DNA of 64,000 bases from Prosthecobacter vanneervenii (GTDB lineage: Bacteria; Verrucomicrobiota; Verrucomicrobiia; Verrucomicrobiales; Verrucomicrobiaceae): assembly GCF_014203095.1 (NCBI RefSeq), contig NZ_JACHIG010000004.1:124001-188000 (forward strand), read 5' to 3'. Of this stretch, positions 23,305-29,839 are shown in pieces. The position numbers and the translations under genes are program-made. Positions within the stretch are counted from its first letter, which is position 1, and every line of letters starts with the position of its first letter. The notes under the pieces are model-generated. The model worked only from the letters and a program-made list of their open reading frames with translations, was not told the origin of the DNA and did not search any database.

Positions 23305-23527
23305 GATCTATTTGGAGTGCGGCTGCGCAACGAGGAACGAGTGGAGCTGCCGCTTTCGAGCGTCTCGTCGTGGGCTGAGGTGGAAGAGCCTGCGGACACC
23401 CACTGGCACTCCCGCCTTTGGACATCCCACGTTTGCGTAAATTGACCAGCACGTCGTTCAGGGAAGCAATTTGGGGAACCACAATAGCCCTTGGCAAAAA
23501 ACTCAACTCCTCACTTGCCTTTCGGAA

Positions 23528-23547
23528 TTTTCAGTTTTCATTGAAAA
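23528..23547 (+). promoter_or_regulatory. Palindromic operator before the GbsR-like gene
   Basis: TTTTCAG-N6-TTGAAAA lies just before the preferred GTG start of the regulator gene. It shares the TTTCAG-N6-(C/T)TGAAA plan with the site at 24088 in front of the next gene. The two matching sites around one regulator gene suggest an autoregulated operator. Confidence 0.5.
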
Positions 23548-23548
23548 C

Positions 23549-24070
23549 GTGAGCAAGGAACTGCCAGAATGGGAAAAAGCCCGCGAGGAATTCGTCATCC
23601 AGTGGGGCTCGCTCGGTACCCAGTGGGGCATCAATCGCACGATGGCCCAGATCCATGCCCTGCTCATGACCGCCCCGGAGCCCATGTGCACAGACGAGGT
23701 CATGGAGCGACTGGAGATCAGCCGCGGCAATGCCCACACCAATCTCAAAGACCTCGTCAGCTGGAACCTCGTCCGCATCATCACCAAGAAAGGCGACCGC
23801 AAAGAGTACTTCGAGGCTGAAAAAGACGTCTGGAAAATCTTCATCACCATCTCCAAGGAGCGCAAGCGCCGCGAGATCGAGCCCGCCATCCACCTCCTGC
23901 GCGACTGCGCCGCCCGCACCAAGGACGAAACCGTCGGCCCCGGCAAGGAGTTCCACCAGCAGATGAAGGACCTCGACGAGTTCCTCAGCTTCGGCGTCAA
24001 GGTGGCAGACACCGTCATCTCCATGAAGCACGCCTCCGCCCTCCAGTGGGCCATGCGCCTCCTCGGCTAA
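23549..24070 (+). CDS. GbsR/MarR-family transcriptional regulator
   Basis: The protein has 173 residues from GTG 23549. The winged helix region (FVIQWGSLGTQWGINRTMAQ, then MCTDEVMERLEISRGNAHTN) is typical of GbsR-type regulators of the MarR superfamily. A longer version from TTG 23471 would put the palindrome inside the gene; I prefer 23549 because that leaves the operator upstream. It heads a four-gene run with two membrane proteins and a DCC oxidoreductase, which it probably represses. Confidence 0.8.
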   Translation: MSKELPEWEKAREEFVIQWGSLGTQWGINRTMAQIHALLMTAPEPMCTDEVMERLEISRGNAHTNLKDLVSWNLVRIITKKGDRKEYFEAEKDVWKIFITISKERKRREIEPAIHLLRDCAARTKDETVGPGKEFHQQMKDLDEFLSFGVKVADTVISMKHASALQWAMRLLG

Positions 24071-24087
24071 TTTTTTCATGCCTTTAT

Positions 24088-24107
24088 GTTTCAGAAAATA
24101 CTGAAAC
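24088..24107 (+). promoter_or_regulatory. Perfect palindrome before the membrane-protein operon
   Basis: GTTTCAG-AAAATA-CTGAAAC has seven-base perfect arms. It overlaps a plausible -10 hexamer (AATACT, with TTCATG 16 bases upstream), placing it where a repressor would compete with RNA polymerase. It matches the site at 23528 and lies between the regulator and its likely target genes. Confidence 0.6.
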
Positions 24108-24142
24108 TACCGAACAAACAAAACGCAAACCGACACACCGCC

Positions 24143-24559
24143 ATGAACCACACCGTCATCACCTACAGCCTCTACCTCATCCTCGCCGTCAGCATGACGG
24201 TCTGGGTCGCGCGCACCCTCCACAAAAACGGTCGCATCTTCCTTGTGGACTGCTTTCACGGAAACACGGAGCTGGCAGACAGCGTCAACCACCTGCTCGT
24301 CGTCGGCTTTTACCTCATCAATATCGGTTTCGTCTCGCTCTACCTCAAGACCACCGAGGAGATCGAGGCCGCACGCGGCGTCTTTGAGGCGCTCAGCGGC
24401 AAGATGGGCGTCGTGCTCCTCATGCTCGGCGGCATGCACTTCTTCAATCTCTACGTCTTCACCCGCATGCGCCGCCGCGCCACCCTCGCCCACCTGCCTC
24501 CTCCCGTGCCTGCCATGAACCGCGTCAGCAAAGCCCACGACATCCTGGACACCCTGTAA
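24143..24559 (+). CDS. Conserved membrane protein, unknown function
   Basis: The protein has 138 residues starting at ATG 24143. There are about three hydrophobic helices, with NGRIFLVDCFHGNTELADSV between the first and second and a basic tail (RMRRRA). It resembles a family I know only as uncharacterised in verrucomicrobia. It is the first gene after the palindromic operator and overlaps the next gene by one base, so it is translated with it. Confidence 0.65.
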   Translation: MNHTVITYSLYLILAVSMTVWVARTLHKNGRIFLVDCFHGNTELADSVNHLLVVGFYLINIGFVSLYLKTTEEIEAARGVFEALSGKMGVVLLMLGGMHFFNLYVFTRMRRRATLAHLPPPVPAMNRVSKAHDILDTL

Positions 24560-25023
24560 TGAAAACGTTTCTCCGCAAAATGAAGCTCTCGTTCCTCGCG
24601 ATGTTGTGCGGCTGGATTGCGTGCAACATCGCCTGGTGGGCGGGTGCAGTGCTTGCAGCAAGGGCTGTCATGCCACCGCACACAGATGACATCGTGTTAA
24701 TCACAGCGTGGACCGCCATTGTCGTGTTGGCAGCATGGCTGGCGGTTTTTCTGCCGGTGGATCTCTGCGTCAATGACCGCTCAAAGCTGCGCAGACCACT
24801 TACTGCGGCACTGTGCGGATTCCTGTCTGCATTCATCATTGTGGCCGGGGTTTTCGCCATCGCTGTTTCTTCTTTATTCGAGTATCAAAGCCTCATGGAA
24901 AGTATCTGGCGGGCGCTGGACAAGGCTGCTCTGCCCTACGCACTGGGCACCTGCGCCACCGGAACAGTCGCCGCATGGACTCGGGCCTTGATGGACAAAC
25001 CAAACCGCAACCAAATACCATGA
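24559..25023 (+). CDS. Integral membrane protein, unknown
   Basis: The protein has 154 residues with about four predicted helices (LAMLCGWIACNIAWWAGAVL, TAWTAIVVLAAWLAVFL and two more). It starts at TAATG, sharing a base with the previous stop, and its own end overlaps the DCC gene. Genes in this run therefore look co-translated. No known domain is seen. Confidence 0.6.
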   Translation: MKTFLRKMKLSFLAMLCGWIACNIAWWAGAVLAARAVMPPHTDDIVLITAWTAIVVLAAWLAVFLPVDLCVNDRSKLRRPLTAALCGFLSAFIIVAGVFAIAVSSLFEYQSLMESIWRALDKAALPYALGTCATGTVAAWTRALMDKPNRNQIP

Positions 25024-25445
25024 ACACCCTCATCATCTTCTACGATGCCCGCTGCGGCCTCTGCTCGCGCTTCCGCCGCTGGATGCTCGAACAGGCCGCG
25101 TATGTGCGGCTGCACTTTCTGCCCTACGACTCACCCCAGGCACTCCGCCTCTGCCCCGATCTTCCCAGCCTGCGCGCCGATCAGGAAATCGTCGTCATGG
25201 GAGACGACGGCTCTCTCTGGCAGGGCGCAGGTGCCTGGGTCACCTGCCTCTGGGCGCTGTGCGAATTCCGCGAGTGGTCACTCCGCCTCGCCAGCCCCGC
25301 ATTGCAGCCCATCGCCCGCAAAGTCGTGCACTGGATCTCGACCAACCGCATCACCCTCTCACGCCTCCTCCGCCTGCGCAGCGACGACCACATCAAACGC
25401 CAGATCACCGACGTCACCTGCGACACCGGCGCATGCTCTCTCTAG
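25020..25445 (+). CDS. DCC-family thiol-disulfide oxidoreductase (DUF393)
   Basis: The protein has 141 residues. The N-terminal YDARCGLCSRFRRWM is the Cx2C motif of the DCC/DUF393 thioredoxin-like family. The rest follows the family plan (SLRADQEIVVMGDDG). It could carry out disulfide exchange in the cytoplasm or at the membrane. Its ATG overlaps the stop of the preceding membrane gene, closing the operon. Confidence 0.8.
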   Translation: MNTLIIFYDARCGLCSRFRRWMLEQAAYVRLHFLPYDSPQALRLCPDLPSLRADQEIVVMGDDGSLWQGAGAWVTCLWALCEFREWSLRLASPALQPIARKVVHWISTNRITLSRLLRLRSDDHIKRQITDVTCDTGACSL

Positions 25446-25713: not shown

Positions 25714-28700
25714 ATGCCATTCCTCCGCAGCCTGCTCATCCTCGGCACCCTCGCCGCCAGCCTCCACGCCGCCGAGGACAAAATGCGTCTCGTTCGTGAA
25801 ACAGACGCACTAACCCCCGATCAGGAACGCTCAGGACTCCACGTGCCGCCGGGTTTCACCGTGCAGCTCTTCGCCAGCGAGCCCCTGATCAACAAGCCCA
25901 TCAACATGGCCTTCGACGCACGCGGCCGCTTGTGGGTTTCCTCCACCGTCGAGTACCCCTACGCCGCAGACAAGGCCCGCTGGTCAGACCCCCAGGGTAC
26001 CCGCGTCAAACACAGTCGCGATGCCATCAAGATCCTCGAAGACACCAACGGTGACGGCCGCGCAGACAAAGTCACCGACTTCGCCGACGGCCTCAACATC
26101 CCCACCGGCGTCCTCCCCTGGCACAAGCCCGAGCACAAAGCCGGATGCATTGCCTGGAGCATCCCCAACATCTGGTACTTCGCCGACACTGATGGCGATG
26201 ACAAAGCCGACCACCGCGAAATTCTCTTCGGCCCCCTCGGCTATGAAAAAGACACCCACGGCATGTGCAGCAGCTTCCGCATGGGCCTCGACGGCTGGGT
26301 GTACGCCACCCACGGCTTCAACAACACCAGCAAGTTGAAGGTGAGACAGCCTACGGAACACACAGAAGACACAGAAAAAAAGAAATCCGGTTCCGTGTCT
26401 TCCGTGCTTTCCGTAGGCACCTCTGAATTGGAGCTGCACAGCGGCAATGTCTTCCGCTTCCGCCCCGACGGCTCACGCGTGGAAATCTGGACGCATGGCC
26501 AGGTCAATCCCTTCGGCCTCTGCTGGGACCGCTTCGGCAATCTCTACAGCGCCGACTGCCACAGCTCGCCCATCTACCAGCTCATCCGCGGCGCCTGCTA
26601 CCCCAGCTTTGGCAAGCCGCACGACGGCCTCGGCTTCGCCCCCGTCATGTGCCAGCACAGCCACGGCTCCACCGGCATCTGCGGTATCGTCTATATCGAC
26701 GGCGGCGTCTGGGGCCCCGAGTGGGACGACCACATGCTCGTCGGCAACTGCGTCACCTCCCGCGTGAACCACGACACTGTCACTTTCACCGGCTCCACAC
26801 CCAAGGCCAACGAGCAGCCCGACTTCATCACCAGCGACGACCCCTGGTTCCGCCCCGTCGATCTCCAGCTCGGCCCCGACAACGCCCTCTACATCGCCGA
26901 CTTCTACAACAAGATCATCGGCCACTACGAAGTGCCGCTGGATCATCCGGGAAGAGACAAGGAGAGAGGGAGGATCTGGCGGGTGGTGAATTTGAAGCAC
27001 ACAGTGAGTTCAACGGAGTGGGCCGAGTACGCGAGCAGTTCCCAAAAGATGAGGCTTGTTCTGGAAAAAGGCAGTCCTCCGCAGCGCAAGATTGCCACGG
27101 ATTGGTTTGCGCAGTCACCGGAACTTTGGAAGACAGAAAACTTTGCCTGGTGTGGCAATTGCTACGAAGCGCTGCATCCACAGACCACAGACCGGCGAGC
27201 CATAGAGGCCAATACCTGGGTCGGACTTCGCACAGGCAATGAAGGTGACCGCGCAAGAGTGGCCATGGGAGCCGCCAACTTTCTTGAAGAACGGGACTTC
27301 ACCTGGAGGCATGCGAGCGTGAGGTTCCTTGCGGCTCTGGATTACTGGCCAGATGAGGCGAAGGCAGCAATGGTGCTGACCGCACGCGAAATCACGACAA
27401 CACAGACCGCTACGTTGCGCATTTTGTCTCAGGCGATCGCCTCTCATCCAGCACCGGAATTTGTGGCTCCCATGTTGATGCATCTCGGGCGTGTTCCGCA
27501 TGAAGATCCCTCGCTGCGTCTCGCCATCATGATCGCTCTGCGGAGCTGCCTGGAAGTTCCGAACGGCTGTCTGGCACTGCAGGGTGTCAAGATTCCAGCC
27601 AGCCAGAATGCAGACATGGTGCAGCTTGTCAGTAGCGCCCGTTCAGCAGAAGCCTCCCAGTTTCTCTGGGATCAGTTTGCATCATCCAAGGATGTAGAAC
27701 AGCAGCAGGCCATGTTTCTTCACGTGGCTCGTTATGGCGAGTCCAAGCTCGTCGAGCAGGCGATTGCACTCGCCCGCAAATCATCGGAATCATCCGACAC
27801 CCACTCGGCCATTCAAAAGCTCACCGCCATCCACAACGGCCTCACCGAGCGCGGCGCTCCCGCCAATCCCGAGCTGCTCCAATGGGCTCAACAACTCGCC
27901 ACCCAGCTCCTCGATTCCGCACAGCAACAACCCGCCCCCGCCTGGACCTCCTCTGGCGAGGCCCAATGGTCCCTGCAGCCCCGCAAATGCACCGACGGCA
28001 CCGAGGCGCAGGTGCTCCAAAGCATGGCCAAAGGAGGCGGCGATGAAGAAAAGCGCACAGGCATTCTCAAATCCAAAGACTTCACCGCACCCGCCAAACT
28101 CACCGTGTGGATCAACGGTCATCGCGGACCACCCACCAGCAAACCTCATGACAAAAACCTCGTGCGAGTCGTCGATGCACAAAGCGGCACCACACTCGCC
28201 AGCGTGTTCCCACGCCGCCACAACGACTGCCGCCGCGAAGAGCTGGACCTTTCCAAACACACCGGCAAAACCGTGCACCTTGAGATCGTTGATGGCGATG
28301 ACGGCAAAGCCTACGCCTGGCTCGGCATCACCCGCATCGAGCCCGCCGTCGTCAGCGTGAACGACTTCCAGAGCGAGGACAGCACCCGCACCGCGCTCAA
28401 GACTCTCGCCATGCTGCTCCAGCACACCGCACCCGCTGTGCTGCGGGAAAAGCTCTCCGCCTACCTGCCACCACGTCCCGCACCACCACCGCTGCCCGTT
28501 TCACCCGAGCAGCGTCAGCAGCTCGATACACTCATCGCCACACGCTCTGCCGCCTACGCCAAAGCTAGGCCGGACATCGCCGCAGGAAAGACTGTCTTCA
28601 CCGCGAACTGCGCCGTCTGCCATCAGATCCGCGGCACCGGCGGCCTCATCGGCCCGCAGCTCGATGGCATCGGCGCACGCGGCCCCGAGCGCCTCTGCGA

Positions 28701-28983
28701 GGACATCCTCGACCCCAACCGCAACGTGGACGCCCACTTTCACCTCCACACCCTCATCCTCAAAGACGGCACCACCCTCAGCGGCTTCCTCAAAGGCGAA
28801 GCCGGCCAGGTCCTCATCCTCGCCGACGCCGCCGGCCAGGAACACCGCATCTCAAAAAACGATCTCTCCAAAGACACCACCACCCCCATGTCCCTCATGC
28901 CCCCCGTCTTCGGCCAGACGCTCGATGAGAAAAACTTCATCAACCTTCTTGGCTACCTAGTCCATGAGAAGACCGGGCAATAA
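25714..28983 (+). CDS. PVC-type membrane-bound dehydrogenase with haem-binding C-terminus
   Basis: The protein has 1089 residues with a signal peptide (LRSLLILGTLAASLHA). The N-terminal half forms a seven-bladed-propeller-like dehydrogenase domain (GLHVPPGFTVQLFASEPLIN, LHSGNVFRFRPDGS, GQVNPFGLCWDRFGNLY). HEAT-like helices (about 440-700) follow. A carbohydrate-binding-like segment and a cytochrome c domain (CAVCHQIRGTGGLIGPQLDG) end the protein. This matches the TIGR02604/TIGR02603 architecture of planctomycetes and verrucomicrobia, presumably periplasmic sugar or alcohol oxidation. Residues about 212-235 are encoded by an inserted palindromic repeat. The region at about 29.4-27.8 percent into the gene and beyond 26960 changes codon use slightly but stays open. 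Confidence 0.88.
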   Translation: MPFLRSLLILGTLAASLHAAEDKMRLVRETDALTPDQERSGLHVPPGFTVQLFASEPLINKPINMAFDARGRLWVSSTVEYPYAADKARWSDPQGTRVKHSRDAIKILEDTNGDGRADKVTDFADGLNIPTGVLPWHKPEHKAGCIAWSIPNIWYFADTDGDDKADHREILFGPLGYEKDTHGMCSSFRMGLDGWVYATHGFNNTSKLKVRQPTEHTEDTEKKKSGSVSSVLSVGTSELELHSGNVFRFRPDGSRVEIWTHGQVNPFGLCWDRFGNLYSADCHSSPIYQLIRGACYPSFGKPHDGLGFAPVMCQHSHGSTGICGIVYIDGGVWGPEWDDHMLVGNCVTSRVNHDTVTFTGSTPKANEQPDFITSDDPWFRPVDLQLGPDNALYIADFYNKIIGHYEVPLDHPGRDKERGRIWRVVNLKHTVSSTEWAEYASSSQKMRLVLEKGSPPQRKIATDWFAQSPELWKTENFAWCGNCYEALHPQTTDRRAIEANTWVGLRTGNEGDRARVAMGAANFLEERDFTWRHASVRFLAALDYWPDEAKAAMVLTAREITTTQTATLRILSQAIASHPAPEFVAPMLMHLGRVPHEDPSLRLAIMIALRSCLEVPNGCLALQGVKIPASQNADMVQLVSSARSAEASQFLWDQFASSKDVEQQQAMFLHVARYGESKLVEQAIALARKSSESSDTHSAIQKLTAIHNGLTERGAPANPELLQWAQQLATQLLDSAQQQPAPAWTSSGEAQWSLQPRKCTDGTEAQVLQSMAKGGGDEEKRTGILKSKDFTAPAKLTVWINGHRGPPTSKPHDKNLVRVVDAQSGTTLASVFPRRHNDCRREELDLSKHTGKTVHLEIVDGDDGKAYAWLGITRIEPAVVSVNDFQSEDSTRTALKTLAMLLQHTAPAVLREKLSAYLPPRPAPPPLPVSPEQRQQLDTLIATRSAAYAKARPDIAAGKTVFTANCAVCHQIRGTGGLIGPQLDGIGARGPERLCEDILDPNRNVDAHFHLHTLILKDGTTLSGFLKGEAGQVLILADAAGQEHRISKNDLSKDTTTPMSLMPPVFGQTLDEKNFINLLGYLVHEKTGQ
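26349..26418. repeat. Palindromic repeat in frame within the haem protein gene
   Basis: GCCTACGGAA at the left and TTTCCGTAGGC at the right are inverted. Between them are further complementary stretches (ACAGAAGACACAGAA against TTCCGTGTCTTCCGTG). It encodes the low-complexity TEHTEDTEKKKSGSVSSVL peptide inside an otherwise conserved propeller blade without breaking the frame. Confidence 0.8.
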
Positions 28984-29005
28984 GACGACCTCGTGCACCA
29001 CCGTT

Positions 29006-29839
29006 ATGATTGACCCGATTTACAAGTTCCTCCCACCGAGTCGTGATTCTTATATAGAAGATGGCAAATTGAGGTTCAGCCAGCCTCGTTCACTCAACGA
29101 CCCATTTGAGTTGGTTAACTTTAACGTGCTCAAGGGGTACGAACAGCATTTAATTTCATCATTTCAGTCAGAGCTCCAGAGAATCGAAAAGATCAGTGAT
29201 CCATCAATTAGAGAGATTGAAAGGCAAGGAGTTCAGTCTGCTATCGACGAAGAGCTAGCGTGCGTGGGCAGAAAGGGTTCAAAGGAGCTAACCAAGTTTA
29301 CTCAGGATATTATAGATAAATTTGGCAAAAAACTTGGAGTTCTAAGTTTATCCGATCGCTGGAACAGCTCTTTGATGTGGTCTCATTATGCCCAGAGACA
29401 CACTGGGTTCTGTGTTGGATTTGACAGGAGCCATCCTTTCTTTGCTGATGAGACACTCCAAAAGACAAAGCTTAGGCCTGTTGTTTATGGTCTCGCCAGA
29501 ATCGATTTTGAAGAGGAAATTCAGGGGCTTGGGCCAAGGATACCTTTCTATAAATCGCCTGAATGGGCTTACGAAGAAGAGTCACGAATCACATTTTATT
29601 GGGAACGTAACGGGCCAATCAATTTCACCGAATTGAAAGCAGAGAACCCTCCAGGAACCCCAGTTCGGCTACTTCATGTCCCGCACGAATCCATATGCGA
29701 ACTATTGATTGGAATGGAAACACCAGCTGACTTGAAAGAGAAGATCATTAAATTCGCAGCTAGACTGAGAGTGCCTGTCTTTGAAACTTTCCAGTCCGTT
29801 ACAAAACTAACCTTAGAACGTGGAGAATTGATTTTGTAA
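29006..29839 (+). CDS. DUF2971 family protein
   Basis: The protein has 277 residues from ATG 29006 (MIDPIYKFLPPSRDSYI). LRFSQPRSLNDPFELVN, LSLSDRWNSSLMWSHYAQRH and GFCVGFDRSHPF mark DUF2971, often found in defence-like or mobile contexts but without a settled role. The gene is strikingly AT-rich and uses codons unlike its neighbours, so recent transfer is likely. It starts 22 bases after the haem protein stop. An earlier start at 28964 would overlap that gene. Confidence 0.75.
   Translation: MIDPIYKFLPPSRDSYIEDGKLRFSQPRSLNDPFELVNFNVLKGYEQHLISSFQSELQRIEKISDPSIREIERQGVQSAIDEELACVGRKGSKELTKFTQDIIDKFGKKLGVLSLSDRWNSSLMWSHYAQRHTGFCVGFDRSHPFFADETLQKTKLRPVVYGLARIDFEEEIQGLGPRIPFYKSPEWAYEEESRITFYWERNGPINFTELKAENPPGTPVRLLHVPHESICELLIGMETPADLKEKIIKFAARLRVPVFETFQSVTKLTLERGELIL

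Follow-up and report, generated by a model that had tools for sequence, protein, structure and literature searches.

The window analyzed here, a 64,000-nucleotide stretch of the Prosthecobacter vanneervenii genome, encodes a predicted GbsR-type regulator whose gene is flanked by two palindromes of one design and followed by genes for two uncharacterized membrane proteins and a DCC-family oxidoreductase. Overall, the arrangement is with good confidence best explained as a GbsR-type repressor that controls its own gene together with a membrane-lipid and thiol-redox module, a reading drawn from comparative sequence that covers the sites, their conservation, their covariation, the link to the recognition helix, and unlinked targets. 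Because conservation, covariation with the recognition helix, the unlinked sites, and a published footprint of the related repressor CydE agree, we read both palindromes as almost certainly operators and not chance occurrences. The features are as follows.

23515..23520, + strand: putative -35 element TTGCCT of the regulator promoter, proposed from a conserved CTTGC
23520..23525, + strand: third half-site TTTCGG, 3 bp left of the palindrome 1 core, at a peak of the half-site score
23528-23547, no strand assigned: candidate operator 1 (palindrome 1), TTTTCAG-TTTTCA-TTGAAAA, directly 5' of the regulator start and ending 1 bp ahead of its GTG (23549)
23549..24070, + strand: predicted GbsR-type (MarR superfamily) repressor, 173 aa, GTG start, recognition helix SRGNAHTNLKDL, assigned by sequence and fold match to Mj223
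24088-24107, no strand assigned: candidate operator 2 (palindrome 2), GTTTCAG-AAAATA-CTGAAAC, beginning 18 bases past the regulator stop codon (24068-24070)
24110..24115, + strand: third half-site CCGAAC, 3 bp right of the operator 2 core, at a peak of the half-site score
24143..24559, + strand: ORF1, a 138-aa protein that matches no Pfam model, with three predicted membrane helices and with H99 and N102 invariant
24559..25023, + strand: ORF2, 154 aa, hydrophobic and fast evolving, no Pfam match above cutoff, sometimes duplicated in relatives
25020..25445, + strand: DCC-family thiol-disulfide oxidoreductase with a DARCGLC motif (PF04134, E 3.3e-13, above cutoff)

The regulator and the two palindromes

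The N-terminal domain of the regulator is a winged helix-turn-helix of the Mj223/MarR kind. Its best match among PDB sequences (hmmsearch) is Mj223 of the archaeon Methanocaldococcus jannaschii (1ku9, E 1.2e-19), which is also the closest solved structure: the AlphaFold model of the regulator (pLDDT 81.6) aligns with 1ku9 at Z 12.0 and rmsd 1.7 over 91 residues with 30% identity. Mj223 is the template used for GbsR models. In the C-terminal part, the model predicts helices at residues 111-123 and 130-158, joined to the N-terminal domain by a linker (about 91-110) at low confidence. Sequence and model together place the regulator in the GbsR-type branch of MarR. Identity as a CudC ortholog was rejected by the curated cutoff, as the CudC model (NCBIfam NF047500) scores 51.2 bits (E 1e-13) against a cutoff of 218. 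Of 48 genomes of the genus, 44 have a match to the regulator, a few of these matches being partial or a distant paralog; in the order, it is present in 206 of 289 genomes. Prosthecobacter sp. and Brevifollis gellanilyticus are among the named near relatives and place the window within or close to Prosthecobacter. A quick tree of 67 regulators, with some long branches, places it in a clade of 36 rows with an SRGNA-type helix, nearly all from Verrucomicrobiota (SH-aLRT 100), and groups the cydE-like proteobacterial proteins outside this clade with Verrucomicrobiota regulators of an ARSNV type. A second, distant GbsR-type regulator (L091 = G000:C1; L093 = G007:C3) precedes apparent polysaccharide-export ABC transporter genes; its gene in L093 is itself preceded by a palindrome of another sequence, GTTCAG-N6-CTGAAC.

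The initial annotation described two palindromes of one design, one before the regulator and one before the next gene, and both are present there. The 6.66 Mb genome has only three exact copies of TTTCAG-N6-YTGAAA, operators 1 and 2 being two of them, and the reversed control pattern has 0 matches. The sole other exact site (G000:C3:46355) lies outside any long ORF, but its spacer is GC-rich and the site did not recur in relatives; the exact off-locus sites inspected in relatives with a clear gene call (L232, L234, and L253) are all inside genes. A wider regulon in the source genome was considered and rejected: sites with one mismatch number 28 genome-wide versus 25 for the control, so that sites outside the locus show no excess over chance.

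At least 80% of 42 genus loci retain CTTGC 11-15 bp upstream of palindrome 1, and many relatives read TTGCCT-N16-TTTAAT ahead of the regulator, from which we infer a promoter. The position of CTTGC fits a -35 element with the -10 element inside operator 1, which suggests that operator 1 covers the -10 region. The second palindrome had been thought to overlap a plausible promoter, a claim not supported by a scan with the sigma-70 consensus, which shows no promoter over operator 2. Outside the palindromes, the half-site score peaks at an offset of 3 in the three groups of loci, to the left of the upstream site and to the right of the downstream site; in the window, the corresponding arrangements are TTTCGG-AAT-TTTCAG and CTGAAA-CTA-CCGAAC. 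This third half-site may recruit a second dimer.

We propose that the regulator would act as a dimeric winged-helix repressor that binds TTTCAG-N6-CTGAAA, with recognition extended by the third half-site 3 bp outside. Binding at operator 1, over the regulator's own probable promoter and next to its start codon, would lead to autorepression (presumably repression rather than activation), and binding at operator 2 would control the ORF1-ORF2-DCC operon. A small molecule or redox signal would be expected to release the repressor.

Conservation and covariation of the sites

Conservation at orthologous loci, the point on which the initial annotation had staked the idea, was examined across the order; both sites are conserved, and changes in their arms covary and track the recognition helix. 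The upstream site, some 20 bp ahead of the regulator's start codon, is an exact TTTC-N10-GAAA in 76 of 77 orthologous loci, and the downstream site has the exact core at most 60 bp past the regulator stop in 65 of 77, counts that overstate independence given that the loci are kin by descent and not independent trials. Shuffled upstream regions contain the motif in 0.12% of cases (0.1-0.2% for shuffled regions overall), and off-site copies number just 21 in 814 kb of the same loci. Among 80 named genomes, the exact core is found upstream in 75 and downstream in 52; the 28 named loci whose downstream site has no exact TTTC-N10-GAAA are a counterpoint to the regulon reading. Our conservation argument rests on these exact counts (77 loci and 80 named genomes) and on the shuffles, because site choice in the genus alignment demanded TTT...GAAA or at most two mismatches, and the invariance of letters there is partly by construction.

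The variable letters of the arms follow the regulator type. At arm position 5, SRGNA loci mostly have A-T and ARSNV loci have T-A or T-C, so that the SRGNA helix is paired with CAG/CTG arms and the ARSNV helix with CTG/CAG or CCG. The right-arm T is found in all 50 of 50 SRGNA-type loci and is absent in 22 of 23 ARSNV-type loci. In most genomes, both sites shift together at this position (41 T/T, 8 A/A, and 8 C/C pairs, against 10 exceptions in the classified loci), and in a genome that has both regulator types (G070), each adjoins its own type of site (L144, L145). Position 6 pairs poorly in the genus (20/42 upstream and 15/40 downstream), which counts against the regulon reading.

Sites also occur where the regulator gene is not nearby. 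The ORF1 search of 289 genomes yielded 12 ORF1/DCC loci of this kind, and 8 of them have the exact motif at most 120 bp before ORF1; in two more (L269 and L275) the motif is 237 bp away or ahead of the operon start. The letters of these unlinked sites agree by and large with the type of regulator in each lineage: TTTCAG-CTGAAA is found in family f2 (L270, L271, L276), where SRGNA regulators occur, and TTTCTG-CAGAAA or TTTCGG-CCGAAA (L265, L262) in lineages having ARSNV regulators. Because unlinked loci carry a site with fitting letters, ORF1 and DCC appear to be genuine targets rather than mere neighbors of the regulator.

The downstream genes and their relatives

Gene coordinates and the overlaps of stop and start codons (TAATG between ORF1 and ORF2, ATGA between ORF2 and DCC) agree with the earlier description of two uncharacterized membrane proteins and a DCC oxidoreductase coupled in this way. 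The gene preceding the regulator is pdxH-like. Homologs of ORF1 are found in 86 of 289 order genomes, and its invariant histidine lies in a predicted membrane helix. No Pfam or NCBIfam family scores above cutoff for ORF1, ORF2, or the c15 family. Assigning a function to ORF1 from structure was abandoned, as the model is too weak (pLDDT 67.5) and has no PDB match at E 0.001 or better.

Of 155 loci, a set whose groups partly overlap because some named records are the same genomes, 133 have at least one cassette gene downstream of the regulator and on its strand; none has such a gene upstream on this strand. The composition of the cassette varies across Verrucomicrobiota and draws on ORF1, ORF2, DCC, a fatty acid desaturase, an MBOAT acyltransferase, a TIGR01777 reductase, DUF2071, and DoxX. 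Within the genus, ORF1 is present in 38/40 loci, DCC in 37/40, ORF2 in 33/40, the desaturase in 14/40, and MBOAT with c15 in 6/40; the other genera of the family have MBOAT and c15 in 12/15, DoxX in 11/15, and the TIGR01777 reductase and DUF2071 in 10/15. The desaturase gene lies between the regulator and ORF1 in several close relatives and not in the window, and the source genome has other desaturase genes elsewhere.

Because the arrangement in relatives adds the desaturase, MBOAT, TIGR01777 reductase, DUF2071, and DoxX, the output of the module is most likely membrane-lipid and thiol-redox remodeling. A lipid/redox role for the module as such is an attribution we make tentatively, at slightly less than even chances, and on the lipid side it is made here by association only, because the window's own operon has neither a desaturase nor an MBOAT gene. 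The initial annotation had suggested a coherent module, possibly for membrane or redox homeostasis; comparative evidence supports the regulon, and the homeostasis role stays at the level of association while gaining a lipid side from the desaturase, MBOAT, and DUF2071 of relatives.

Several observations concern the loci themselves. Just 3' of the regulator in L058 (G016), a 68-aa ORF resembles the desaturase at its start and ORF1 at its end, which an internal deletion joining the two genes might explain, and L035, L041, and L044 have two tandem diverged copies of ORF2. Further along the window, a short repeat-like stretch at 26342-26425 is in frame in the gene of a PVC-type CxxCH protein, to which it adds about TEHTEDTEKKKSGSVSSVLSV; the insert at this position is similar in L051, different in L048, and missing in most other relatives, and a 16-mer of the stretch occurs once in the source genome. 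A gene at 28964-29839, found at this position in the source genome only among the relatives compared, encodes a DUF2971 protein that matches the PADLOC candidate defense family PDC-S31 (E 4.9e-34).

Known systems and competing explanations

CydE of Alishewanella is a GbsR-type repressor of cytochrome bd genes that is derepressed by sulfate (Xia et al. 2018, PMC6096048). DNase footprinting located CydE on TATTTCAGAAATTTCTGAAAGTTCA and on a second, unrelated-looking site (Xia et al., PMC6096048); one footprinted site contains TTTCAG-AAATTT-CTGAAA, which is the operator motif of the window. TTTC-N10-GAAA is also found upstream of cydE-like genes on Rhizobium (TTTCAGAAATTTCTGAAA), Cupriavidus (TTTCACAAAATTCTGAAA), Methylobacterium (TTTCTGTCATGACAGAAA), and Burkholderia (TTTCTCTCTTGACAGAAA) replicons, with adjoining cytochrome bd genes shown for the Rhizobium and Microvirga records only, which are those that carry gene tables. 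These sequences point to the CydE footprint motif as an operator used generally in this GbsR branch, and by operator and closest characterized relatives the window regulator would resemble CydE more than the choline-sensing GbsR proteins. Unlike CydE, which controls cytochrome bd genes, the window regulator has other targets: neither cydAB nor cydABCD lies beside it. The cydE-like relatives examined have SRSNV or ARSNV helices, whereas the window regulator belongs to the separate SRGNA clade. On a Microvirga plasmid (L231), a cydE-like gene follows 3 kb after a perfect TTTCAG-N6-CTGAAA at 976-993; the interval holds two IS110 transposases, and insertion sequences may thus have parted operator and gene.

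The GbsR, OpcR, and OpuAR proteins of Bacillus belong to the same MarR subgroup and share with the window regulator an Mj223-like fold, AT-rich inverted-repeat operators, and, presumably, repression (PMC7396694, PMC6207618), which GbsR exerts by roadblock and OpcR by steric hindrance (PMC7396694). They differ in that their targets serve osmoprotectant uptake and synthesis, and the half-sites of Bacillus GbsR are 4 bp apart rather than 6.

That the module instead has a respiratory or oxygen/sulfur-linked membrane redox function, as with CydE and cytochrome bd, the lipid genes being accessory, is the alternative to which we give most room, although we consider it unlikely. CydE shares the operator; proteobacterial matches to the regulator at 38-46% identity adjoin cytochrome bd genes where annotated; DCC and DoxX are thiol- or sulfur-related families; and the invariant histidine of ORF1 falls in its predicted membrane helix. 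However, no cytochrome bd gene was recognized in Verrucomicrobiota neighborhoods screened against the cassette families, the clade separation is strong (SH-aLRT 100), and the desaturase, MBOAT, and DUF2071 point to lipids. A classical osmotic-stress regulator responsive to choline or glycine betaine would account for the fold and for the partial match to the CudC model, but that match is far below its cutoff, the downstream genes belong to membrane, lipid, and redox functions rather than to betaine synthesis or Opu transport, and the aromatic cage is reported to be confined to the osmostress GbsR group (Ronzheimer et al., PMC6207618), so we regard this explanation as the least probable of those considered.

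Hardly more credible is the idea that the palindromes are RNA hairpins, acting as an attenuator or terminator, and not DNA sites to which a protein binds. A 7-pair hairpin (-7.5 kcal/mol, z -2.0) can form from operator 2, and arm covariation by itself is also compatible with RNA pairing; yet there is no T run past the operator 2 stem and no terminator call there, and operator 1, immediately before the start codon and over the probable -10 element, would hardly be transcribed. The T-C combination at position 5 and G-A at position 6 do not pair, the site tracks the recognition helix of the regulator, and a GbsR-type protein, CydE, footprints on the same motif.

The type of operator was already known from CydE; the regulon, the operator code, and the modular targets are new. 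No description of this regulon was found in the papers searched, most subscription papers lying outside that scope. To our knowledge, few regulons have been described in Verrucomicrobiota. DCC, DUF2071, and TIGR01777 proteins form widespread families of little-known function. We judge the chances to be about even that Verrucomicrobiota have a phylum-wide GbsR-type code, in which two regulator clades with differing helices and matching operator letters govern an undescribed, modular membrane-lipid/thiol-redox pathway that includes a new family of three-helix membrane proteins (ORF1) acting with the DCC oxidoreductase. The regulator, the operator, the pairing of helix and letters, and the target set can all be read from the genome, making binding and derepression directly testable, and the system would offer a first handle on two uncharacterized membrane protein families and on the DCC, DUF2071, and TIGR01777 proteins.
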